Shown one piece after another: positions 8,721-41,335 of a stretch of 64,000 bases of DNA. Origin of the DNA: Iodidimonas sp. SYSU 1G8 (GTDB lineage Bacteria; Pseudomonadota; Alphaproteobacteria; SMXS01); contig NZ_JBBYXJ010000001.1 in assembly GCF_039655775.1 (NCBI RefSeq), positions 1,116,001 through 1,180,000 of the forward strand, in the 5' to 3' direction. The position numbers were made by a program, and so were the translations under genes. Below the pieces are notes generated by a model. The model had not been told where the DNA came from, made no database searches, and worked only from the letters and a program-made list of their open reading frames with translations. Position 1 is the first letter of the stretch, and each line of letters starts with the position of its first letter.

Positions 8721-8848
8721 CGAGACCAGTCTACAAGCGCGTCCGCACCGCAGCCAGCGCCGCTTGAGGTTATTTCAAATTTATGGCTTTATTGGGGTGT
8801 AACGTGGGGTTGCTGCATCTGTCCCTCGCTCTCGTGGAGACCAACGGC

Positions 8849-9481
8849 ATGAGCGCCAAGGCCTGTATTCTGTCGGCGGTTGCCGCTCTTGGACTGTTTG
8901 CTTTCGGCGGCGGTAATGCCGAAGCCACGTACGACGCGGGTTCCATACCAGGCCTGCAATATACCGGCCTCAGCTTCTCGCCGCCTTTCGGTTCCAGCCA
9001 CCGCAACAACGTAGAGGCCGCGATTGAATCAACCTTGGCGCCGGGAATCGACGTGTCATTCGTCGGACGCCTGGACGGGATTGCCACCCAGTCCGCGACC
9101 GGCTCCGACCCTGTGTTCGATGACAGCCTGTCGGCGACGTGCACCAACGGCAGCCCTTCCGACTGCAAGGCGGGTACCTGGACGTTCGACGCGGGCTCGT
9201 CGGATTTTCTGATCGCTTTCATCGAAATCAGCGGTGGCGGTGCCAGCAAGCTGTACGAGGTCATCGACTATTCACTGGTCGGCCTGTGGAACACCTACGA
9301 CCTGTTCAACGGCGGCGGCGGCAATCCGGGCCTTTCCCATCTGGATTTCTATGGCACGGTCGTGTCGTCTCAGAGCGGGGGCGGCGGTGTGCCGGTTCCC
9401 GAGCCGGCGGCGCTTGGGCTGTTGGCCGTGGGCGCGTTTTCTCTCGCTTTCCTTCGCCAGCGGCGCAAGACGGCGCGCTGA
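8849..9481 (+). CDS. PEP-CTERM sorting domain protein
   Basis: A 210-residue exported protein. It starts with a signal peptide (SAKACILSAVAALGLFAFGG). It ends with the PEP-CTERM tail: VPVPEPAALGLLAVGAF, a short hydrophobic segment, then a basic end (RQRRKTAR). Such tails are cut by exosortase, and the protein goes to the surface or matrix. The middle is glycine- and serine-rich with one CTNGSPSDC pair. ATG 8849 follows GTGGAGA. No exosortase is in the window. An AT-rich upstream stretch at 8768-8795 may hold its promoter. Confidence 0.9.
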   Translation: MSAKACILSAVAALGLFAFGGGNAEATYDAGSIPGLQYTGLSFSPPFGSSHRNNVEAAIESTLAPGIDVSFVGRLDGIATQSATGSDPVFDDSLSATCTNGSPSDCKAGTWTFDAGSSDFLIAFIEISGGGASKLYEVIDYSLVGLWNTYDLFNGGGGNPGLSHLDFYGTVVSSQSGGGGVPVPEPAALGLLAVGAFSLAFLRQRRKTAR

Positions 9482-31282: not shown

Positions 31283-31664
31283 GGAAGGTAGCAGGCGCCC
31301 GGCGGGAGTCAAGGCGGGGCTACGCGGGTTCGGCATGCATGGTGTGCGGCGCGGCAGCACTCACTCCGCCGTCTCGACGCTCATGCGACCGGGCCGCCGA
31401 GCGCGCGGCTTGCGGATGACGATTTCCACGTCGCGGCCCTCACGAATTTCAAGATGGCAAAGCGGCTGGGCGCCATGGAATAGCAGCTAGTGATCGACAT
31501 CAAAGATCAGCAAATTGTCATCGAAATGCCGACCGGCGGTGATGACATGAGCGAAACGAGCAATACCATACTATCGTCGGGCCACCAGCTGGCGCAATTA
31601 AAGGCCCTGGCACCGCAACCACAGGGTTATTGTCTGGAGCGGGAATGCGAGTGATATCGGTACC
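31283..31664. other. Gap without a supported gene; possible gene remnant
   Basis: About 380 bp between the riboswitch and the Sel1 gene. On the minus strand a frame ending at 31372 codes for a C-terminal-like tail (LEIREGRDVEIVIRKP, then RARRPGRMSVETAE), but an in-frame TAG stands 5' of it near 31490, and only a short open piece precedes. On the plus strand there is a 53-codon frame from GTG 31491 with no family likeness. This looks like a decayed gene at the left edge of the accessory island. Confidence 0.35.
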
Positions 31665-31676
31665 GTGGGGAGGTCG

Positions 31677-32960
31677 ATGCGAGCTTTATGGCGTCTGGTC
31701 AGCACCAGGCAGGCAGCGTTACTGCTTGTGCTGGCTATTGGCGGCCTGTGCGCGCTTCTCGCCTTCAGATTAATGTGGATCGGCAAGGACTACTGGCGCA
31801 GGAGCTGTCCTTCCGGCACGTTCGCGGCGAATAGCCTCAATAGCCTTGAACTGTTGGTTGGGCTGCTCGCCCTGTCCTGGATTCTTTACCTGCTGATCTG
31901 GGGCATGAAGATCCGTGATGAGGCTTTCGCACGACCAGGGCTCCGTTCGATATTCATCCGGCGAGCGAGGCAGATACTGACCCACCTGATCCTGTCGGCT
32001 GTCCTTCTCCTTTGTTTGTTCGCTGTATTCGGATTCAGAGGTTATTGCGCTATGTCGGGTGGCGTAATCGTCGCCCAGTGGCCGTGGACGGCCGCCAAAC
32101 ATTATCAGTGGCAGGACGCCACACGGGTGCAGGTCGACTGTAGAAAGGGGCGGCGGTCTGGATATAGCGGCAGACTCCATGTCACGCTGGGAGACAGTGA
32201 GATTTCCTTCATGGAAGCTGACCTGGAGGGAACGCATTACGGCTCACTGAGCAACGCCCTTCGGTTCGTCCCATTCAAGTTTGAAGACGATCACGTGCCT
32301 CCTGCATGTGAAGAGTGGGTTGTCCGGCAGGTTCCGCGCCGCCCAGGAGCCGCGCAGCCTTATTCCAGTCCTGTCAGTGAAGAACTGGCTCTGGCGATCA
32401 GTCGCAACGAGCGAGGCTATCCCGGCTGGGCGCGTCCGGTATTTAGGACGCTGGCGGCGGCGGGGGACCCCGTGGCGCAGGTGGAGTTGGGAAACATGTA
32501 CACCGAGGGGCGCGGCGTGAAAGCCGACCCCGCTCATGCCCTATCGCTCTACCGGCGAGCGGCTATGAGTGGCGAGGCGGCGGCGCTGAATGCCATAGCA
32601 GTCGCCTATGATTATGGTGCCGGCGTGCCGGCCGACCGAAGAGAGGCGATCCGCTGGTATGGGCTCGCTATCGCCGCCGGCAGCCCAGCAGCGATGAACA
32701 ACATCGGTCTCTTTTACTATCACGGCATCGAGGTGCCGGTGGATTATGCAAAAGCCCGGGAGCTTTGGGAAAGCGCCGCCACTCTCGGCTATGCGCCGGC
32801 AATGAACAACTTGGCGGAGTTGCTGGAGAAAGGCTTGGGAGGTCCTCGCGATCGCGAGGCCGCAATCCGGTGGTGGCGTGTGGCGGCCGCCCACGGTATC
32901 CCCGCAGCGGTCAGATCAATAAACGGGATTATTGGCCGAGCAAGCCAGATAGGGTCCTAG
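31677..32960 (+). CDS. Membrane protein with Sel1 repeats
   Basis: 427 residues. Three membrane helices lie near the N-terminus (LLLVLAIGGLCALLAFRLMW; LLVGLLALSWILYLLIWG; LTHLILSAVLLLCLFAVFG). A beta-rich middle portion follows, then three to four Sel1 repeats from about residue 260 (AQVELGNMYTEGRGVKADP, AALNAIAVAYDYGAGVPAD, PAMNNLAELLEKGLG). Sel1 domains bind partner proteins. The start is taken at ATG 31677 behind GGGGAGG; GTG 31665 is an alternative. Function unknown; it lies at the island's left edge. Confidence 0.7.
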   Translation: MRALWRLVSTRQAALLLVLAIGGLCALLAFRLMWIGKDYWRRSCPSGTFAANSLNSLELLVGLLALSWILYLLIWGMKIRDEAFARPGLRSIFIRRARQILTHLILSAVLLLCLFAVFGFRGYCAMSGGVIVAQWPWTAAKHYQWQDATRVQVDCRKGRRSGYSGRLHVTLGDSEISFMEADLEGTHYGSLSNALRFVPFKFEDDHVPPACEEWVVRQVPRRPGAAQPYSSPVSEELALAISRNERGYPGWARPVFRTLAAAGDPVAQVELGNMYTEGRGVKADPAHALSLYRRAAMSGEAAALNAIAVAYDYGAGVPADRREAIRWYGLAIAAGSPAAMNNIGLFYYHGIEVPVDYAKARELWESAATLGYAPAMNNLAELLEKGLGGPRDREAAIRWWRVAAAHGIPAAVRSINGIIGRASQIGS

Positions 32961-33052
32961 CGCAGGCAGCACGGCAGGCGCGCCGCTCGCCTCCAGTCGG
33001 TCGGAGCTCTGCGTAACTGCCACCATACCGGACCTACCTCCGTCCCAAGGAA

Positions 33053-33289
33053 GTTCTGCGACAGGGCACTCGACCTGTCCTTCTGCTTCGGATTCCGCTC
33101 CCCGGGCTTGAGCGTACGGTTTGCGGTGTCTTCCAGATCCCGGTGAACTTGGCGTCGACAAAGAGACCACCGTTGCCACGCTGAGTAACATGGTGGGGCA
33201 TACGGCGAATGATACGCGGGCGAAACGTGCCATGATGAAATCGCGACGGATCGGGCGCGGGCGTCAATTAAGTGCACTATCACCGAAAT
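33053..33289 (-). mobile_element. Deletion derivative of the RAYT element
   Basis: This 237-bp stretch joins the first about 23 codons of the transposase (LPHHVTQRGNG-like) to its last about 30 codons (TANRTLKPGERNP-like), with about 500 bp of the core missing. The join is near 33168-33172. The right end GCGTCAATTAAGTGCACTATCACCGAAAT (33261-33289) matches the intact element's end; the left end (33053-33090) is more decayed. A one-base loss shifts the frame early, so it cannot code for a protein. It is a non-autonomous, MITE-like copy. Confidence 0.8.
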
Positions 33290-33415
33290 TCGTGTCTTGG
33301 ACCGCAGTAGGATCACGGTAAAGCCCCCGTCGCCGATATCGTTGACCGTGAACCTGACCTGACCCACCGTGATCATTCGCTATTGAGGGCAGAGGATAAG
33401 GGGTGAGAATTGCCC

Positions 33416-33919
33416 GTGACGATAGAGAACAACGTGGAAGCCGTTACCATCAGGCCCTTGCGGGCAGAAGACGGCGAAATTGCCGGAGAGATCTTTTTCG
33501 ACGCGGTCCACCATGGGACCGGGGAGCATTACACGCACGAACAGCGAACAGCCTGGGCCGGGGCGTCGCCGAACCCGTCCGGGTGGCGAAACAGGCTCGT
33601 CGATGTTGATGGGTTCATGGCGGAGCTGAATGGCACTCCGGCAGGCTTCATGACGATCGATGCGTCGGGCTATATCGATCTTGCTTTCGTCAGACCAGGT
33701 GCACTGGGGATGGGCGTGGGCTGGCTGCTGTATCGGGCCATCGAGGCGCGTGCGGAGCAGCTTGGTGTGGCCTGTCTCACCACGGAGGCAAGTAGGAAGG
33801 CCAGGCCGTTTTTCGAGCGGCAGGGCTGGACCGTGGAGCGGGAGCAGCGGGTCGTGAAACGCGGCGTGTCCCTCACGAACTTCAGGATGACAAAGTGGCT
33901 GAGCAGTCTAAAGGATTAG
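33416..33919 (+). CDS. GNAT family N-acetyltransferase
   Basis: 167 residues with the GNAT fold: TIRPLRAEDGEIAGEIF at the start, a strand GTPAGFMTI, the acetyl-CoA loop region PGALGMGVGWLLYRAIE (a variant of the usual R/Q-x2-G-x-G/A) and the end stretch ASRKARPFFERQGWTVER. Start: GTG 33416 is preferred as GGGGTGAG (33400-33407) lies 8 nt ahead; a TTG at 33410 is too close. Substrate unknown. It sits between two transposon remnants. Confidence 0.87.
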   Translation: MTIENNVEAVTIRPLRAEDGEIAGEIFFDAVHHGTGEHYTHEQRTAWAGASPNPSGWRNRLVDVDGFMAELNGTPAGFMTIDASGYIDLAFVRPGALGMGVGWLLYRAIEARAEQLGVACLTTEASRKARPFFERQGWTVEREQRVVKRGVSLTNFRMTKWLSSLKD

Positions 33920-33969
33920 CAGGCGACGATGGAATTTATTAGCAAAGATATTAATTAATTCACAAAAAA

Positions 33970-34494
33970 TTATCGATTTATTGATAATTTCTTATTTTTA
34001 ATAAATCTATGAATCAAATTAAAACTCCTCCCATTAGCATCCGCATTCTGAAGAGTAACCACTTCCTCGGGACTTACCTCTGCTATCAGCATTTTCTCCA
34101 ACCAGGTAGTTCCAACTCCAACAAAATAGCCACAACCTCTCGCCGCCATCATTCTTTCTTCAAAATTTTCCCTAAACTCATCTGCACCCTCCGGGAAGTA
34201 AAATCGCGATCCAGGCGGGCTGGTTCTGGATGCCGCCCTTATGGTGAGCACATCCGGCATCCAATTTCCGTTCAAAGGGACAAATTCGTAGGCCCTGAGA
34301 ATGACGATGCGCGATTCAGCTAGGGGAGAAAATCTCATGGCCGCCCCTGAAGGGAAGACTATCAGTCCATTCTCCGGCCCATCGTAAAAATCCAGCATTA
34401 TCACTGTATGGAACCCCATATCATGGGTCACCCCTGACCTCTTTGACAATTCTCTCAAGGTATCCAATGAAGAGCGGGGCATGCCTCGATCCAT
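33970..34494 (-). CDS. Orphan hypothetical protein, AT-rich
   Basis: A 174-residue protein not recognised. It is rich in hydrophobic beta-type segments (MGFHTVIMLDFYDGPENGLIVFP, SRIVILRAYEFVPLNG), has one Cys and a basic end (KNKKLSINR), and no signal or membrane helix. The coding and flanking DNA are more AT-rich than the surroundings. An AT-rich hairpin (AAATTATC/GATAATTT, 33967-33990) overlaps its 3' end and may end the transcript. Confidence 0.6.
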   Translation of the reverse strand: MDRGMPRSSLDTLRELSKRSGVTHDMGFHTVIMLDFYDGPENGLIVFPSGAAMRFSPLAESRIVILRAYEFVPLNGNWMPDVLTIRAASRTSPPGSRFYFPEGADEFRENFEERMMAARGCGYFVGVGTTWLEKMLIAEVSPEEVVTLQNADANGRSFNLIHRFIKNKKLSINR

Positions 34495-34592
34495 CTCAAT
34501 CTATTTCTGAGCTCTATATAGCAATAAAATTTCTGTTCTGCTGAATTAGAAAGATTAAAAGGAAAATTTAGCAAACAATCACTGCAACTAAC

Positions 34593-35087
34593 TCACCATA
34601 TCTCCACCGACGCGCAGCCGAGCTCCCCTGCGACCGCTCTCACCGGCGCTTCGGAAAAATACTCTATCATGGTTGCCCCATGAGGGAGGCGCACGACCTC
34701 GCCCTTGTCGTTACGCACTGTTTCAAAGCGCCAGATCCCGGCGCTTGATTCTACGTCCAGCTTTTTCCAGTCCCAGCCATTCATCGCCCCGCACGCCAGG
34801 GCGCGGCCGGTCAGGCTGTAGACGGCACCACCGACATGCACGACAGGACAGTTCGAGTGTTCGGCGGGCACACACTCGACACCAGCCGACGGAAACTCGT
34901 AGGGCCAGTTTTCGGGATCATCCTTTTCGCAAATGACCCGACGCTTTCCTTCGGGCCAGGGACCGGAGACGAACTCGAATTTGGGATCGCACATCTCATC
35001 TACCGGCTCCCAAGACAGCGCAGAACTCATCTGTATCGAAATTATACCAGCGGTTACCAGCAGACCAAAGCGCGTGACACGGCCCAT
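34593..35087 (-). CDS. Exported orphan protein with cysteines
   Basis: 164 residues. A signal-like start (RVTRFGLLVTAGIISIQM, cut near ALS) precedes a mature part with six cysteines including MCDPKFEFV, VICEKDD, VECVPAEHSNCP and ALACGAM, and a final Cys. Disulfide pairs are likely in the periplasm. Start ATG 35087 follows AGGAAAAG. Not recognised. Confidence 0.6.
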   Translation of the reverse strand: MGRVTRFGLLVTAGIISIQMSSALSWEPVDEMCDPKFEFVSGPWPEGKRRVICEKDDPENWPYEFPSAGVECVPAEHSNCPVVHVGGAVYSLTGRALACGAMNGWDWKKLDVESSAGIWRFETVRNDKGEVVRLPHGATMIEYFSEAPVRAVAGELGCASVEIW

Positions 35088-35193
35088 CACGTTCTTTTCC
35101 TGTGGGTTAATTTCATTCACACATCTGGTCCGCAATGTCGTTGATGAGACCACCTCCGGGCCTACACCATCGGTTAAGTTGATGGCGCGCCCG

Positions 35194-35655
35194 CTACCGC
35201 ACCTCAAGAAAGTGAAGCAATGCTTTCGCATAGGCGGTGCGGCGCTCCTGCCTGCCACCTTCAACACCCTTCCTAATAAAGTCGCGCAACTCCAGTTTGT
35301 AAATTTCCACCGCAGGATCATCCATTACAAGATCCGCAAGCAGGTTCATGCCGCCCCCTTGAAGACCGAGATGCCATAACCCAAACCAGAAATATGAAAA
35401 TCGTTGTGGTTGAGGCATCTTCGCCACCTCTTTGTAATAATAATCGTGATAAACGCTCGATATAGGCCCCGATCCGAAAGCGTAAATATCTCCGAACTCA
35501 ACATACTCGGCATCATACCTAACGATTATATCGCCAATTATCTGCTTAAGACGCTGATCCACCGACGCTTCTTCGGCCTTTACGGGACTGTAAAAGACCA
35601 ACGCTCCCATCAGAAACAGAAATTTACAAACCATCGATGCTTTTCGGAGTTTCAC
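35194..35655 (-). CDS. Exported orphan protein
   Basis: 153 residues. A hydrophobic N-terminal segment (MVCKFLFLMGALVFYSPV, cut near VKAEE) marks export. The mature part is helical, with YYYKEVAKMPQPQRFSYFWF and FIRKGVEGGRQERR. Start GTG 35655 has AAGGG at 6 nt; ATG 35634 is the alternative. Not recognised. Confidence 0.55.
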   Translation of the reverse strand: MKLRKASMVCKFLFLMGALVFYSPVKAEEASVDQRLKQIIGDIIVRYDAEYVEFGDIYAFGSGPISSVYHDYYYKEVAKMPQPQRFSYFWFGLWHLGLQGGGMNLLADLVMDDPAVEIYKLELRDFIRKGVEGGRQERRTAYAKALLHFLEVR

Positions 35656-35754
35656 TAACAACCCTTTCCCCAAGTAACGTGACTTTTTAACCGAATTAAC
35701 GAATAGTTTTACGAGTCCTCCTGGCTTCGCACAACATTCACTCGTCGAACCCTC

Positions 35755-35959
35755 GACTTTGCCCCCCTTGCCCGGCTTAAGCGTGAGGTTTGTCGCGTTC
35801 TCCGGGCCTGCGATGAACGCGTCGTTGCCGAGAGGAGCCTGTTACCACGATGGGTGGCATGGCGCGGCAGACCGAGAATCACGACACTAGCGAGACGGGC
35901 CATGCCCCACAATTTGCAGGATCAGCGGCGGGCGTCAATTAAGTACACTGTCACCGAAA
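35755..35959 (-). mobile_element. Deletion derivative of the RAYT element
   Basis: The minus strand carries the start MARLASVVILGLPRHATHRGN of the transposase, joined near 35841 to its C-terminal codons (TLKPG-like). The join lies at the same place as in the copy at 33053. The right end GCGTCAATTAAGTACACTGTCACCGAAA (35932-35959) is intact. The left terminal repeat is not visible. The copy is non-coding. Confidence 0.75.
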
Positions 35960-36114
35960 CCCACTTTACTACCGCAACTATGAGATGTGACCTTGGCGGT
36001 TACGGTAACAGGTGCAAACCTCCCGCCCCTTGCCGGCTACCGCCGCGGCTTGACGGATCGTCAGGCAAGGGTAAGCTTGCCGTCCAAAGGCGTTGCTCAT
36101 TTGAAGGAATATTC

Positions 36115-36723
36115 ATGGTCCGCCCGATATCGGCCGCCTTACTCGTCTGGGTCGCGCTGACGGTTCCTTACCAGGCATTGGCAGATTCAGCACCGAAACC
36201 TTGCGCCGAAATGCCGGGAACGCCCAGCAGGAAGCCGAAGCCGTTATGGAAGTCGGTGCCGCTGATGTCCGTGCTCACCAAGGTGGAGGAACGCGGGGAG
36301 GCCGGGTTTCGGTTGGCGTGGTCGCCGCCCCTGTCGCAGTGCCTGGTGGAGACACTGGATGCGGGGGGCATGCCGATCAATGCGGTGCACGCAACATTCC
36401 TGAAGGACGGCAAGGATCTTGAGGACAGGCTGATCTACCGCTTCTCGGGCGGTGAAGCCGATGGCGCGCGCGATGTGGTCGTGCTGTTCGACCCCTTATC
36501 GTCCGTCCTCACGAAGGTCCATCTGTTCTATGTCGCGGAAATGCGCGGCGGCCAGATTTTCTACTATGCCATGTTCGACGGATTGCCACCCTACGAGACG
36601 CTCAAGCAGACCGTGGCCGGCGTGCTGAGCGGTGAAGAAAAGCCGCTGGCGGTGGTCCATTGGCAACCCGGCGCCAAGGAGGGCAGCATCGACGTTTTCG
36701 ACGCGGACAGGCTGAAGCGTTAG
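36115..36723 (+). CDS. Exported hypothetical protein
   Basis: 202 residues. The signal peptide covers about residues 1-23 (ISAALLVWVALTVPYQALA). The mature part has two early cysteines (KPCAEMPG and SQCLVETLD) and a beta-type pattern with DVVVLFDPLSSVLTKVHLFYV. ATG 36115 follows GAAGGAAT. Not recognised. Confidence 0.65.
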   Translation: MVRPISAALLVWVALTVPYQALADSAPKPCAEMPGTPSRKPKPLWKSVPLMSVLTKVEERGEAGFRLAWSPPLSQCLVETLDAGGMPINAVHATFLKDGKDLEDRLIYRFSGGEADGARDVVVLFDPLSSVLTKVHLFYVAEMRGGQIFYYAMFDGLPPYETLKQTVAGVLSGEEKPLAVVHWQPGAKEGSIDVFDADRLKR

Positions 36724-36850
36724 GCGCCGATTTTCGGTCGGGGGGCGGAATGACGATTCACGGTTCTGAAGAACGTGCCCGAATCGGACTCTTGCGCTCC
36801 ATCCTCCAAACAACGCTGGAACGGGCGTCATTATCGATACAGGTGGACCA

Positions 36851-37195
36851 TTGAGTACCGGAGAGAATTTTATAGCTCATTGGATCTGGATGGCAGGTCT
36901 CGCAATATCTTTCGTTCTGATAGTCAGCCTACCCCTTCTTGTTGATGGCGAAAGACTTGAGTTGTTCGCGATAGAAGATGTAGAAGTCTACTCAAGCCCA
37001 GAGGGTTCGACCGTAACGGCGCTTATTAGATCCGGTGAGCTCGCTCCCATTATCGCATGCGACTACACCAAATCAGATAGAATTTTGGAAATTGAAGTAG
37101 ATGGAAGAGCCGGTTATGTTATTGATGGAAAATATACTATAATCAAGAAATCCAGATCAGAACATTCTATCTCTCCGGTCTCATTTTCATGCTAA
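36851..37195 (+). CDS. Small membrane protein with SH3-like tail
   Basis: 114 residues. One N-terminal membrane helix (WIWMAGLAISFVLIVSLPLLV) precedes a beta-rich tail that resembles a bacterial SH3 (DVEVYSSPEGSTVTALIRSGE, then RAGYVIDGKY). The start is TTG 36851 behind AGGTGG; ATG 36890 would cut into the helix. The tail is AT-rich. Not recognised as a family. Confidence 0.5.
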   Translation: MSTGENFIAHWIWMAGLAISFVLIVSLPLLVDGERLELFAIEDVEVYSSPEGSTVTALIRSGELAPIIACDYTKSDRILEIEVDGRAGYVIDGKYTIIKKSRSEHSISPVSFSC

Positions 37196-37261
37196 ACTGA
37201 CAGGCTCGTCGAGCGACTGTTATTAGTGATAGTGTCGACGGCCCTTGCAGAAATAACCCAC

Positions 37262-37365
37262 CCGCATCGCCGAAGAACGTACGCACCCGCCCATTGCCAC
37301 GCTAAAGGTAATATGGTGCAGCAGGCCGGGAATGACGGCACGGGCGCGGCGGGCCACGCCCCATT
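37262..37365 (-). mobile_element. Fragment of the RAYT element (transposase N-terminal region)
   Basis: The sequence matches the 5' part of the intact transposase gene (from the start to about the end of the region coding NGRARTFF), but with no terminal repeat on either side and changes that break the frame. It is therefore a truncated remnant, not the same deletion type as the two short copies. Confidence 0.6.
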
Positions 37366-37384
37366 GTCAGCGTAACTCGTAATT

Positions 37385-37783
37385 CTAGCGTACTTTTACG
37401 TACGAAATCGCAAAATCAGGATTTACTCTTAACAAAACATCCCCCAACAGAGTTCTTTCTAATTCAGGACTCCAGAACCCCTGGGTTCTTTTGGGTCGGA
37501 GATGACCATCATACCCAAACACATAATCATTAAAACCCAAACGTACAGTCGAATCATAAGTCAAATAATGATACCACGTATTAGAATTTTCGACTACAAG
37601 CCTGCCCTGAACCCTGTATTCCAAACTATACGTGCCATCTTCGTATAGCACTAGTCGCTCATCACCCTGATCATGAGTCGCAACGTACAACCCGATGACT
37701 GACGCTCGATCCACCGAATCGGAACAACCTGATAAGGCTATCGCGTACAATACACAGGCCATCTTCAGCACATACCCAAGCAT
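37385..37783 (-). CDS. Orphan lipoprotein
   Basis: 132 residues. The signal region ends in a lipobox (AIALSGCSDS, the Cys about residue 20), so an inner- or outer-membrane lipoprotein is predicted. The mature part has beta-strand pairs with DERLVLYEDGTYSLEYRVQG, a pattern also seen in small lipocalin- or META-type proteins, but it is not assigned. ATG 37783. AT-rich coding. Confidence 0.6.
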   Translation of the reverse strand: MLGYVLKMACVLYAIALSGCSDSVDRASVIGLYVATHDQGDERLVLYEDGTYSLEYRVQGRLVVENSNTWYHYLTYDSTVRLGFNDYVFGYDGHLRPKRTQGFWSPELERTLLGDVLLRVNPDFAISYVKVR

Positions 37784-37950
37784 CAATACCTACCAAATCC
37801 GGTGACACAGCGTAATCGAGGCATGCCGATGCCAAGCTGGTCACCCTCCTCCACACCATCACCGATACATTTCCGCCGGCGTCCACCCCGCCTGATCTGC
37901 CTCGCCCTCCGAAAAGAACCATCGTTCCCCGGCGGACTGGTTGATCACTG

Positions 37951-37985
37951 ATTTCGGTGACAGATTTCGGTGACAGTGCACTTAA
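37951..37985. repeat. Left end of the RAYT element with partial tandem copy
   Basis: ATTTCGGTGACAG (37951-37963) is followed directly by the same 13 bases, which continue as TGCACTTAACTG. The second copy is the inverse complement of the right end at 38672-38700. The doubled 13 bp suggests that an element end was cut and joined to another, or slippage. Confidence 0.8.
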
Positions 37986-38644
37986 CTGTCCTTCGGCTTC
38001 GGGCCCCGCTTGCCGGGCTTGAGCGTACGGTTTGTCGCGTGTTCCAGGCCGACGATAAACGCGTCGTCGCCGAGGGGGCGGCCGATGGTTTCGGCGCGGC
38101 GCAGGCCGTCGAGCAGCGCCGGGTCGCCCTCGGTGGCGATGAAGTCGGCGAAGGGCGCGAACCGCTCCAGCACCGGCGCCAGCGTGGTGATGCCGTCGTC
38201 GCGGCCGGACAGGTGGGCATGCACGCTGGACCACGGCCAATCCTGGGCCCGCGCCGCCAGCCGCGCCCGGACGGGGTTGAGGGCGATATAGCGCACCGCC
38301 GCGCCCAGATGCGCCTCGTCCATGGCGGCGGCGCCGAACCGGCCCTGCCAGAAATGCCCGCTCCGCCGCTCGCGCGCGTGCACCGCGCCGGCATAGCGCC
38401 GGTGCACCGGCGCCAGCGCGCGCCGCAGCCCGTCCGCGTCGGATGGCACCAGGATCAGGTGGACGTGATTGGGCATCAGCACCCAACTCCAGACCTCGAC
38501 GCCCGCCGCGCGGCACGAGGCGGCCAGCAGGTCGCGGTAGAGCGCGTAGTCCGCGTCGCTGAAGAACGTCCGCGCCCGCCCGTTGCCACGCTGGGTGACA
38601 TGGTGCGGCAGACCGGGAATGACGACGCGGGCGAGACGGGCCAT
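37982..38644 (-). CDS. REP-associated tyrosine transposase (RAYT)
   Basis: 220 residues of the IS200-like Y1 transposase family. The HUH motif is NHVHLI with H60 and H62. The candidate catalytic tyrosine is Y118 in RYIALNPVR. The N-terminal PHHVTQRGNG and GHFWQGRF are family signatures. A single-strand DNA nick-and-join enzyme, thought to act on REP-type palindromes. The reading frame is open and intact, so it may be active. The derivatives in this window would depend on it in trans. Confidence 0.93.
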   Translation of the reverse strand: MARLARVVIPGLPHHVTQRGNGRARTFFSDADYALYRDLLAASCRAAGVEVWSWVLMPNHVHLILVPSDADGLRRALAPVHRRYAGAVHARERRSGHFWQGRFGAAAMDEAHLGAAVRYIALNPVRARLAARAQDWPWSSVHAHLSGRDDGITTLAPVLERFAPFADFIATEGDPALLDGLRRAETIGRPLGDDAFIVGLEHATNRTLKPGKRGPKPKDS

Positions 38645-38671
38645 GACGCACTCTCGCCGGATCGGCGGCGG

Positions 38672-38700
38672 GCGTCAATTAAATGCACTGTCACCGAAAT
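38672..38700. repeat. Right end of the RAYT element
   Basis: GCGTCAATTAAATGCACTG followed by TCACCGAAAT. Near-identical ends are found at 33261-33289, 35932-35959 and 40006-40034. Confidence 0.85.
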
Positions 38701-38771
38701 TTGATTGAGCCCGGTCAATGCGCACTCGCACTTGGGTGGGCAGAATGCTCGTTCCCTTTCAGGAGCGTTTC

Positions 38772-39368
38772 ATGAAAACCCTATCGCGGCTTCGGATTTT
38801 TCACGCCTGCCTGGCGATCGTCGCCGTAACTGCTTACGCGACCGGTGAGGCGGGCAGTATCCATGCGTGGTTCGGTTACGGGGTTGCGTGCCTGATCGTC
38901 GTGCGCCTGATCTGGGCGACCACCGGCGTAACGCAACTCGGACTCAGCAAGTTCTACCCGAATTTCGTGGGTCTAAAGCTCGGCAATGCGGCCACCCATC
39001 CTGCGATCAGTCGAACTCTTCTGGCAGGCATTGCCTTGCTGGTCGTGGGTGCGGCGGCCACGGGTATCTGGATGGACCAGGGCAAGACCATCGGTTTCGG
39101 CCAGGCGCGGCCCACTGCCTATATTGCTGAGGCTGCGGATGGTGGCGAAGAGGAGCATGGGGATGGAGGGATGGTCGGCGAGGTGCATGAGACGCTCGCC
39201 AACGCGCTCGTGGTCGTCGTCGCGTTCCATGTCCTGTATCTGCTTCTCTTCAAGAGGCCGCTCGCCCTGTTCATGCTGTTCATCCGCGCGCCGCATGGAA
39301 ACCGGCGCCGGCGAGATGCACGTGAAGGCGAAAGCGTTGCCGATGGAGATGATCGCCAGCTACCCTGA
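38772..39368 (+). CDS. Cytochrome b561-type membrane protein
   Basis: 198 residues. Helices in the N-terminal half (RLRIFHACLAIVAVTAY, then HAWFGYGVACLIVVRLIW) carry histidines H11 and H31. A third (LLAGIALLVVGAAATGIW) and a fourth (ALVVVVAFHVLYLLLF) follow, the latter with His in VHETLAN and AFH. The four His would bind two b haems, as in prokaryotic b561 electron carriers. A polar tail (GNRRRRDAREGES) ends the protein. ATG 38772 has AGGAGC. A partner cytochrome c or dehydrogenase is not next to it. Confidence 0.82.
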   Translation: MKTLSRLRIFHACLAIVAVTAYATGEAGSIHAWFGYGVACLIVVRLIWATTGVTQLGLSKFYPNFVGLKLGNAATHPAISRTLLAGIALLVVGAAATGIWMDQGKTIGFGQARPTAYIAEAADGGEEEHGDGGMVGEVHETLANALVVVVAFHVLYLLLFKRPLALFMLFIRAPHGNRRRRDAREGESVADGDDRQLP

Positions 39369-39443
39369 TTTGTTCAGGTAGGGCGAGCCGCCAGGAGCGA
39401 TGACCGGAGAGGCGCTCAAGGGCGGCCGCGCCTGCACCCTGCG

Positions 39444-40034
39444 AATTCGGTGCCAGTGCACTCAACCATCCTTAGACTTCAGGCCCCGCTAGTCGGGCGT
39501 GAGCGTGCGCTTCGAGCGGACTGATACCCCGGTCGCGGGCCGTGTGGTAAGGTGACTGCACAGGTGCACACCGCACGTTCAGGCAGTTCAGATCAGCATG
39601 GCCCGCAAACGCTCGAAACCCGATCCCGTTGAAGACCTGCCCGACGACGAGGCGCCCGCCCCGGTGGTGCATTGCTGGCTCTGCGGGCGGCCCACGGGCG
39701 AGACCATCGTCTGGCACCATCCCGTGCCCAAGAGCCGGGGCGGGCGTGACGTGGTGCCGATGCATCCCATCTGCCAGCAGACGCTGATGGCCAATTTCAC
39801 CAATTCCGAACTGCAGCGCCACGGGCTGGACGTGGAGGGCCTGCTGGCCAACCCCAACGTGCGCAAATTCGTGGATTGGGTGGCGAAGAAGGACCCGGAT
39901 TTCACCGCGAGCACGGCCAAGAAGCAGCGCTGAGCGGGCATCTGGCGCATTCGGCATCTGGCGCTTTCGAACGTGCCATACCCCTTGCCGCCGGATCGGC
40001 GGCGAGCGGAAATTAAGTACACTGTCACCGAAAT
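39444..40034. mobile_element. RAYT-type element carrying an HNH-like gene instead of the transposase core
   Basis: The left end at 39444-39515 matches the left end and the last transposase codons (RTLTPD, stop, RGLKSKDG-like on the minus strand). The right end at 39981-40034 matches the transposase start region and the terminal repeat (AATTAAGTACACTGTCACCG). Between them there is no transposase core but an HNH-like gene on the opposite strand. The ends show more mismatches than in the intact copy. Confidence 0.7.
39598..39933 (+). CDS. HNH-endonuclease-like protein with altered active site
   Basis: 111 residues. The first zinc pair C26-x2-C29, the H40-H41 core in WHHPVPKSRGG and C59 of HPIC are kept. 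In related proteins the next residues read CH-x3-H, supplying the last histidines; here they are C-Q60-Q-T-L-M64, so those ligands or catalytic residues are lost. The C-terminal NVRKFVDWVAKKDPDF matches the family. It may be a DNA-binding remnant or an enzyme with changed chemistry. It lies inside RAYT-like ends, antisense to them. Confidence 0.75.
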   Translation: MARKRSKPDPVEDLPDDEAPAPVVHCWLCGRPTGETIVWHHPVPKSRGGRDVVPMHPICQQTLMANFTNSELQRHGLDVEGLLANPNVRKFVDWVAKKDPDFTASTAKKQR

Positions 40035-40170
40035 TTGGCGCCGACATTGGGTGCTGGCCGTCGCGTCCGAGCCATAAATATTCGTGTGAATTCAGCGGAT
40101 AAATGAACCAAATATACAAATATTAATTTAACAACTTGTAAACAATACCCTTGATCACCAAGTACGCTGA

Positions 40171-40176
40171 TATAAT
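40171..40176 (+). promoter_or_regulatory. Candidate -10 box of the 40199 gene
   Basis: TATAAT matches the consensus exactly within an AT-rich leader. The only -35-like site (TTGATC, 40151-40156) is 14 bp away, too close. It is 23 bp from the ATG. Confidence 0.35.
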
Positions 40177-40198
40177 AAAACATGACAAGGATCGCCCG

Positions 40199-40441
40199 AT
40201 GTATACGCGCCTTGATAGTTATATTGAGACCTGGTTGGATCAGAATGTCGGGTCCGGCCCCGAGTTGCTTCCGAATGATTCCGAACTGAGGGAACTGGCC
40301 AGGTCCTTGGCCTGCGACGTGAACAATCACGCGTTCGACAGCATGGACCTCGACTCATACGGCCCGTTCGCCCGGCGCATCGGCGAGGCGAGGCGCGCCG
40401 CGAACGCGCCCGCCAGAGCCAATCTGAATGGCCCTGCTTAA
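40199..40441 (+). CDS. Small orphan protein
   Basis: 80 residues. Soluble, acidic and helical: YTRLDSYIETWLDQNVG, then a pattern with LPNDSELRELARSLACDVN and a C-terminal basic stretch. ATG 40199 has AAGGA at 7 nt; the longer frame from TTG 40151 is unlikely. Not recognised; it is the last gene of the island. Confidence 0.6.
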   Translation: MYTRLDSYIETWLDQNVGSGPELLPNDSELRELARSLACDVNNHAFDSMDLDSYGPFARRIGEARRAANAPARANLNGPA

Positions 40442-40462
40442 CCGAGGCGGCGAAAGACCGCC

Positions 40463-41335
40463 CTATCCCCGGTAGCGGAACAGGCCTTCCTGGGCGACGG
40501 AGGCGACGAGCAGGCCGTCGCGGGTGTAGATGCTGCCGCGGTTGAAGCCGCGGGCGCCGGAGGCGCTGGGGCTGTCCATGGTGTAGAGCATCCAGTCGTC
40601 GTCCATCTTGAAGGGATGATGGAACCACATGGCGTGATCGAGGCTGGCGGATTGCAGCTTGCCCGACAACCAGGTGATGCCGTGCGGGCGGAAACAGGTG
40701 TCGAGCAGGGTCATGTCCGAGGCATAGGCGAGCATGCACTGGTTGAGCGGCAGATCGTCGCCCACCGAGGCGCGCGGGCGGAACCAGACGTGCTGCACCG
40801 GCTCGGTCGGCTGCGGGTTGATGAAATCCTGGCGGTTCACGTGGCGCATCTCGATGGGGCGCGGGCGCGAGAAGTGCTTGGCGATGTGCTCGGGCACCTT
40901 GTCGATCACGGCGAGGCGCAGTTCCTCGTCGCTGGGCAGGGATTCGGGCGGCGGCACGTCGGGCATGCTGGCCTGGTGCTCGAAGCCGTCCTCGGGAATC
41001 TGGAACGAGGCGGCCAGGTTGAAGATCTGCTTGCCGTGCTGGATCGCCACGACGCGGCGGGTGGTGAAGCTCTTGCCGTCGCGCGAGCGGTCGACCTCGT
41101 AGATGATCGGCACCTTGGGGTCGCCCGGGCGGATGAAATAGGCGTGCAGGGAATGGCAGATGCGGTTCTCGACCGTGCGATAGGCGGCGACCAGCGCCTG
41201 GCCGATCACCTGGCCGCCGAACACGCGCTGCCAGCTGACATCCGGGCTGAGGCCGCGGAATAGGTTCACCTCGAGCGGCTCGAGATCGAGCAGCTTGATC
41301 ACGTCCTCGACGGCATCCTCGTGGGTTTCGGTCAT
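40463..41335 (-). CDS. tesB: Acyl-CoA thioesterase II
   Basis: A 290-residue double-hotdog thioesterase that hydrolyses acyl-CoA to free acid and CoA. Marks: NLFRGLSPDVSWQRVFGGQVIGQALVAA, HSLHAYFIRPGDPKVPI, RVVAIQHGKQIFNLAASFQ, MLAYASDMTLLD (catalytic Asp) and LDHAMWFHHPF. ATG 41335 gives the family length; longer frames upstream are unsupported. Confidence 0.95.
   Translation of the reverse strand: MTETHEDAVEDVIKLLDLEPLEVNLFRGLSPDVSWQRVFGGQVIGQALVAAYRTVENRICHSLHAYFIRPGDPKVPIIYEVDRSRDGKSFTTRRVVAIQHGKQIFNLAASFQIPEDGFEHQASMPDVPPPESLPSDEELRLAVIDKVPEHIAKHFSRPRPIEMRHVNRQDFINPQPTEPVQHVWFRPRASVGDDLPLNQCMLAYASDMTLLDTCFRPHGITWLSGKLQSASLDHAMWFHHPFKMDDDWMLYTMDSPSASGARGFNRGSIYTRDGLLVASVAQEGLFRYRG

Follow-up and report, generated by a model that had tools for sequence, protein, structure and literature searches.

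Composition of the chimeric unit

The stretch analysed here, referred to as the window, is 64,000 nucleotides of DNA from Iodidimonas sp. SYSU 1G8 (contig NZ_JBBYXJ010000001.1, positions 1,116,001 to 1,180,000). At 39441-40037 it contains a chimeric unit in which two tips of a REP-type Y1 transposase (RAYT) element, in the correct orientation, enclose a gene for an HNH-like protein. In these refined bounds the transposase core is replaced at about 39515-39969 (approximately 455 bp). Both outer tips are kept and point outward as in an intact 745-bp RAYT copy 0.7 kb away, and both inner sides are cut. The HNH-like open reading frame (ORF) lies on the plus strand, opposite to the RAYT reading frame. 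The parts of the unit are as follows.

39441-39514, minus strand: RAYT left tip and the last 16 or so transposase codons, decayed, with one in-frame stop (alignment and translation)
39515-39542: short filler separating the left end from the HNH promoter (the RAYT alignment ends at 39514)
39543-39597, plus strand: the HNH-like gene's own upstream region (GTGTGGTAA...TTCAGGCA-TTCAG), aligning with sphingomonad upstream regions
39598-39933, plus strand: intact gene for an HNH-like protein of 111 aa, a distant HlpB relative of Sphingomonadales type (ORF, homology, dN/dS)
39938-39969: 16-bp tandem duplication coinciding with the right junction, its two copies differing by one mismatch (GGCATCTGGCGCATTC GGCATCTGGCGCTTTC; sequence reading)
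39970-40037, minus strand: RAYT right tip with transposase start codon (ATG, 39980-39978) and 5′ hairpin (alignment)

The left end (39441-39514) was identical at 62 of 74 positions to a RAYT copy in a congener (G005), with an alignment score of 96 against 48 for the best of 200 shuffles. Against the RAYT copy of the window itself it scored 88, while the rest of the window gave 35 or less in 1130 tests. The right end (39968-40037) aligned to RAYT right ends with a score of 86 (shuffle best, 42), the next-best score elsewhere in the window being 55. Both scores are thus about twice the best shuffle and far above all window sequence outside the island in which the unit lies (see below). On the minus strand the left end reads RTLTPD*RGLKSKDG where the intact copy has RTLKPGKRGPKPKDS, and the longer translation, SKRTLTPD*RGLKSKDG against TNRTLKPGKRGPKPKDS, identifies it as a decayed transposase C-terminus. 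The right end retains ATG GCA CGT (M-A-R), and the intact RAYT begins with MARLARV. The alignments, shuffles and window-wide comparisons therefore bear out a sequence-only reading of this DNA, which had proposed that two RAYT ends, showing a decayed C-terminus and start codon, enclose an HNH-family gene on the opposite strand where the transposase core should be. The 16-bp duplication at the right junction is as expected for illegitimate joining.

The RAYT family in the window and in the genus

The intact element and the other remnants around the unit are listed below.

31320-40463: variable low-GC island between gcvT and tesB, holding all RAYT copies (collinear flanks in relatives)
33075-33290, minus strand: RAYT copy with an internal deletion, retaining just the C-terminal and N-terminal ends
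35761-35959, minus strand: internally deleted RAYT copy
37262-37356, minus strand: RAYT N-terminal fragment
37962-38704, minus strand: intact RAYT element with inverted tips, about 745 bp long; ORF 37982-38644, 220 aa (Pfam, NCBIfam)

The intact ORF generated a hit on Y1_Tnp (PF01797) in Pfam at 1.2e-7 and on REP_Tyr_transpos in NCBIfam at 5.5e-21, with 75 bits, slightly below the cut-off of 80. Its translation carries the HUH motif MPNHVHL and the catalytic Tyr region YIALNPV. The full tips are inverted (GGTGACAGTGCA.../...TGCACTGTCACC). This ORF is the likely source of any activity in trans. Units of 745 bp occur in three species, namely this one and two congeners at about 90% identity. The genus also holds dispersed miniature inverted-repeat transposable elements (MITEs) of 106-108 bp with the same tips, a single example of which was folded (z = -5.5). 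Canonical GT[AG]G-tagged, high-copy REP hairpins were not found, the congener genomes having approximately 5-40 end matches each (0 in G006); given the tip GGTGACAGTGCA, the element fits at best a RAYT group with atypical ends. The genome of SYSU 1G8 gave ten end-pattern matches, mostly inside one 7-kb cluster made up of the two core-deleted copies, the fragment, the intact RAYT and the chimeric unit.

Outward tandem repeats were seen at the tips of intact RAYTs, ATTTCGGTGACAG occurring twice in the window (37945-37985) and CTGTCACCGTAACC being repeated at the right end of the G005 copy (L133). They are perhaps traces of repeated insertion at one tip.

The gcvT-tesB island

The island is bordered by gcvT at about 31.3 kb and tesB at 40.46 kb. 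Both flanks are collinear with the window in four congeners (G002, G004, G005 and G006), and the tesB side is collinear in two more (G001 and G003), and the interior differs in every congener compared. Conserved flanks with differing interiors mark the stretch from gcvT to tesB as an insertion hotspot. In all six congeners this site held neither an HNH gene nor a recognisable RAYT gene. Presence of the HNH gene here in relatives lacking the ends had been named as evidence against the capture; the relatives have no HNH gene there. Orphan small genes are interleaved with the RAYT remnants (Sel1-repeat protein, 31665-32960; GNAT, 33410-33919; cytochrome b561, 38772-39368).

Origin and properties of the HNH-like gene

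Among 385 genomes drawn from the class, relatives at least 74% identical to the HNH-like gene were confined to this genus and one other family (f13), and the named close relatives, oddly labelled metagenome-assembled genomes aside, belong to Sphingomonadales, where the gene occupies scattered genomic positions. The synonymous divergence (dS) of the gene of the window was 0.39 to Sphingomonas gei and 0.41 within the genus; a distance across orders as low as that among congeners points to horizontal transfer, and by these sequence comparisons the gene is regarded as a horizontally acquired Sphingomonadales gene. The 55 bp upstream of it align with the sequence preceding HNH genes in sphingomonads (best score 55, shuffle maximum 31). 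Since this is the native promoter region of the family, the insert consists of the gene and its promoter and little else. The dN/dS of 0.10-0.23 indicates that the gene is under purifying selection and still needed by the host.

The 111-aa product contains C-x2-C, HH and H-x2-C. Its closest named family is HlpB (NCBIfam NF058586), to which it is alike in size class and in these three motifs; unlike HlpB, it scored only 34.8 bits against a cut-off of 130 and has Gln in place of the final His, and we class it from its sequence as a distant HlpB relative rather than a family member. The Gln was found in 86 of 86 sequences examined (85 by pattern and one by eye). The protein thus lacks the complete HNH catalytic motif of a homing HNH endonuclease, and its nuclease activity is doubtful for the same reason. 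The host also encodes a separate HlpB-like paralogue on contig C2, which is 41% identical to the HNH-like protein and retains the His; as judged from such comparisons, the HNH-like family, unlike the HlpB-like paralogues, probably forms a non-nuclease branch. No match was obtained for the protein among solved structures or PHROGs. HlpB of Bacillus subtilis is tied to the AddAB repair complex by the title of the paper describing it (J. Bacteriol. 194:6184, cited in PMC12704722). The product in the window is likely a DNA-repair-type HNH-like protein, possibly devoid of nuclease activity, and its cellular role would be related to repair.

HNH-like genes at another locus in congeners

Three congeners (G001, G003 and G004) carry an HNH-like gene at another locus common to all three, and approximately 78 further loci were compared outside the genus (up to 20 kb of DNA each). 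The sequence-only reading had suggested looking for the same gene with and without the ends: at the outside loci the gene is free-standing, with neither a RAYT homologue nor a RAYT tip beside it, and the congeners have it away from the island, next to MITEs of this family. The MITE ends lie 90-200 bp from the gene in G003 and G004, beside it and not around it. The MITEs near the congener genes are 108 bp long and belong to the same transposon as the RAYT of the window. End matches number only about 5-19 per genome in the HNH-bearing congeners. Hotspots common to foreign genes and RAYTs can explain this proximity; the ends may also have helped HNH insertion.

In G001 (L016:8602-9231, minus strand; HNH-like gene at 8757-9095) a left-tip remnant, TTACGGTGACA, lies 130 bp upstream of the gene and a right tip 110 bp downstream, the latter interrupting the loop of the terminator that follows the gene. 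This arrangement of tip, HNH-like gene and tip was considered as a second passenger unit and rejected, since the sequence past the right tip differs from that flanking the corresponding MITE in G004 and a 3-kb gene block is missing there; the frame in G001 thus arose by rearrangement. Directly outside the left tip of the MITE beside the HNH-like gene in G003 and G004 (L018:9024-9070 and L017:2579-2624), 46-48 bp duplicate the 3′ region of a short-chain dehydrogenase gene located 3 kb further on. The two genomes retain different parts of the copy, and the duplication took place locally, before or together with the arrival of the MITE.

Between G001 and G003, dS was 0.09 for the HNH-like gene and 0.32 for tesB. 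The dS of the G001 gene was 0.21 to a sphingomonad gene and 0.41 to that of the window. In a tree of 82 HNH genes, a single clade for the genes of the window and the congeners was not rejected (approximately unbiased test, p-AU = 0.485). The dS values favour the view that the congener genes probably represent a separate acquisition. The radical-SAM-like gene of the congeners' HNH site had no match in the genome of SYSU 1G8, hence no empty donor site can be read there.

Mobility and origin of the chimeric unit

The sequence-only reading had raised the possibility that copies of the whole unit exist elsewhere. The unit is present once in this genome, and no second combination of left end, HNH-like gene and right end was found in the genus or among the loci outside it. 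The end pairs ('-' to '+') of the congeners show MITE or full-RAYT spacing, with no spacing that would accommodate a passenger. The end pairs were screened for passenger spacings in the 385 genomes of the class, with the first places listed per genome. Further, where the intact copy has a left subterminal hairpin (GACAGT/ACTGTC), the unit reads GCCAGT/ACCATC and the hairpin is destroyed; nothing pointed to movement of the unit in trans. At the sequence level, the lost left hairpin and the mutated tips argue against recognition of its ends by the cognate transposase. With matching inverted ends around a passenger gene, the unit has one of the defining features of a mobile insertion cassette (MIC) or transporter insertion sequence (tIS); with one copy in the genome, none in relatives and no usable empty site, it does not show movement as a unit.

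One odd spacing from this screen was followed up, 837 bp in another alphaproteobacterium (G234), and was rejected as a cargo element, since it resolves into a full MITE, a gene and a solo right end. At this place (L216:1116-1975, contig C163) a complete MITE, a 176-aa ORF that we take to be DUF1993-like, and the solo right tip lie within 860 bp, a further instance of a gene flanked by ends of this kind.

We consider it probable that the unit is a dead RAYT copy with an internal deletion, situated in a variable island rich in RAYTs, and that a single foreign gene was joined into its gap by illegitimate recombination. The single copy, the lost left hairpin, the end-pair spacings of the congeners and the duplication at the right junction favour such a dead copy. 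A RAYT copy in the RAYT-rich hotspot would have lost its transposase core, a common local fate, as the neighbouring copies at 33075 and 35761 are also core-deleted. About 455 bp of Sphingomonadales DNA, comprising the HNH-like gene with its own promoter, would then have been joined into the gap, either during the core deletion or into an already miniaturised copy; both this mechanism and the order of deletion and capture are proposed from the present arrangement. The host would have retained the gene intact under purifying selection while the ends decayed. We infer that both ends stem from one former element. Two points weigh against this account. The two ends could stem from two different RAYT copies, and the relatives offer no empty site for this copy, since they lack the entire content of the island. 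Moreover, at an unrelated locus in the congeners the HNH-like gene again lies about 90-200 bp from related MITEs, and with only 5-19 ends per genome this is not well explained by chance.

If the two ends did come from different copies, the HNH-like gene would simply lie between two separate truncated RAYT or MITE remnants and would never have been inside one element. The presence of five RAYT remnants within 7 kb, the MITEs beside rather than around the gene in G003 and G004, and the rearranged frame in G001 are all compatible with such a coincidence; the kept outer tips, cut inner sides, orientation and close spacing would, however, require two truncations that each happened to fall on the right side, and we regard this origin as rather unlikely. 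Movement of the two ends and the gene as one passenger-carrying RAYT, driven in trans by the intact transposase 0.7 kb away, has other observations in its favour: dispersed 108-bp MITEs with the same tips in congeners indicate that the tips can move without the core, and the HNH-like gene lies near such ends at two loci, in four of four HNH-bearing members of the genus, against none of the approximately 78 loci outside. It is nevertheless improbable, given the single copy, the destroyed hairpin and mutated tips, the end-pair spacings in relatives, and the closer affinity of the G001 gene to sphingomonad genes (dS 0.21) than to that of the window (0.41). Of the interpretation first offered for this unit, then, the captured gene between decayed ends stands, and the passenger-carrying mobile element, with one copy and a lost left hairpin, is not supported.

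The first reading had also considered that a mobile HNH gene landed in the core. HNH-family features in the sequence and the scattered positions across Sphingomonadales genomes agree with a self-mobile, homing-type gene. There is no intron, intein or recurrent target, the last motif His is replaced by Gln, PHROGs gave no match, and the closest named family, HlpB, is, as far as the title cited above goes, a stand-alone cellular protein. Such an insertion is therefore highly improbable.

Relation to known systems and significance

As in known RAYT (TnpA-REP) transposases and REPtrons (PMC2817692, PMC6006769), the intact neighbour is a Y1 transposase with inverted, structured ends and dispersed short non-autonomous derivatives; unlike in them, an unrelated gene stands in for the core of one copy here. 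The ends of the unit belong to the single-strand HUH class and not to the DDE class. The tIS, MIC and TIME elements, in which comparable arrangements are found, belong to the DDE class. Like tIS and MIC (PMC3129680), a MIC with qnrS2 (PMC5444012) and TIME-mobilised mosaic elements (PMC4133298), the unit has IS ends enclosing an unrelated gene; unlike these, which are mobile or repeated, it is single-copy and decayed.

The unit is real and unusual in its detail, falls short of demonstrating a new class of mobile element, and is notable as a chimera of modest weight. More generally, RAYT-type single-strand transposases might mobilise single host genes, or guide their insertion, between or beside their ends, an idea to which we give little credence; just as doubtfully, its traces would then be the HNH-like gene beside such ends at two loci, unrelated to each other, in one genus and the presumed DUF1993-like gene between a MITE and a right end in G234. 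A limited literature search found no RAYT case with a passenger gene; were RAYT ends able to act as carriers, REP-type elements would count among the vehicles of gene transfer. The case illustrates how a single foreign gene can come to be fixed within a dead transposon copy at a hotspot of insertion, and the locus supplies a concrete end pair and an intact transposase with which gene carriage by RAYT ends may be tested.
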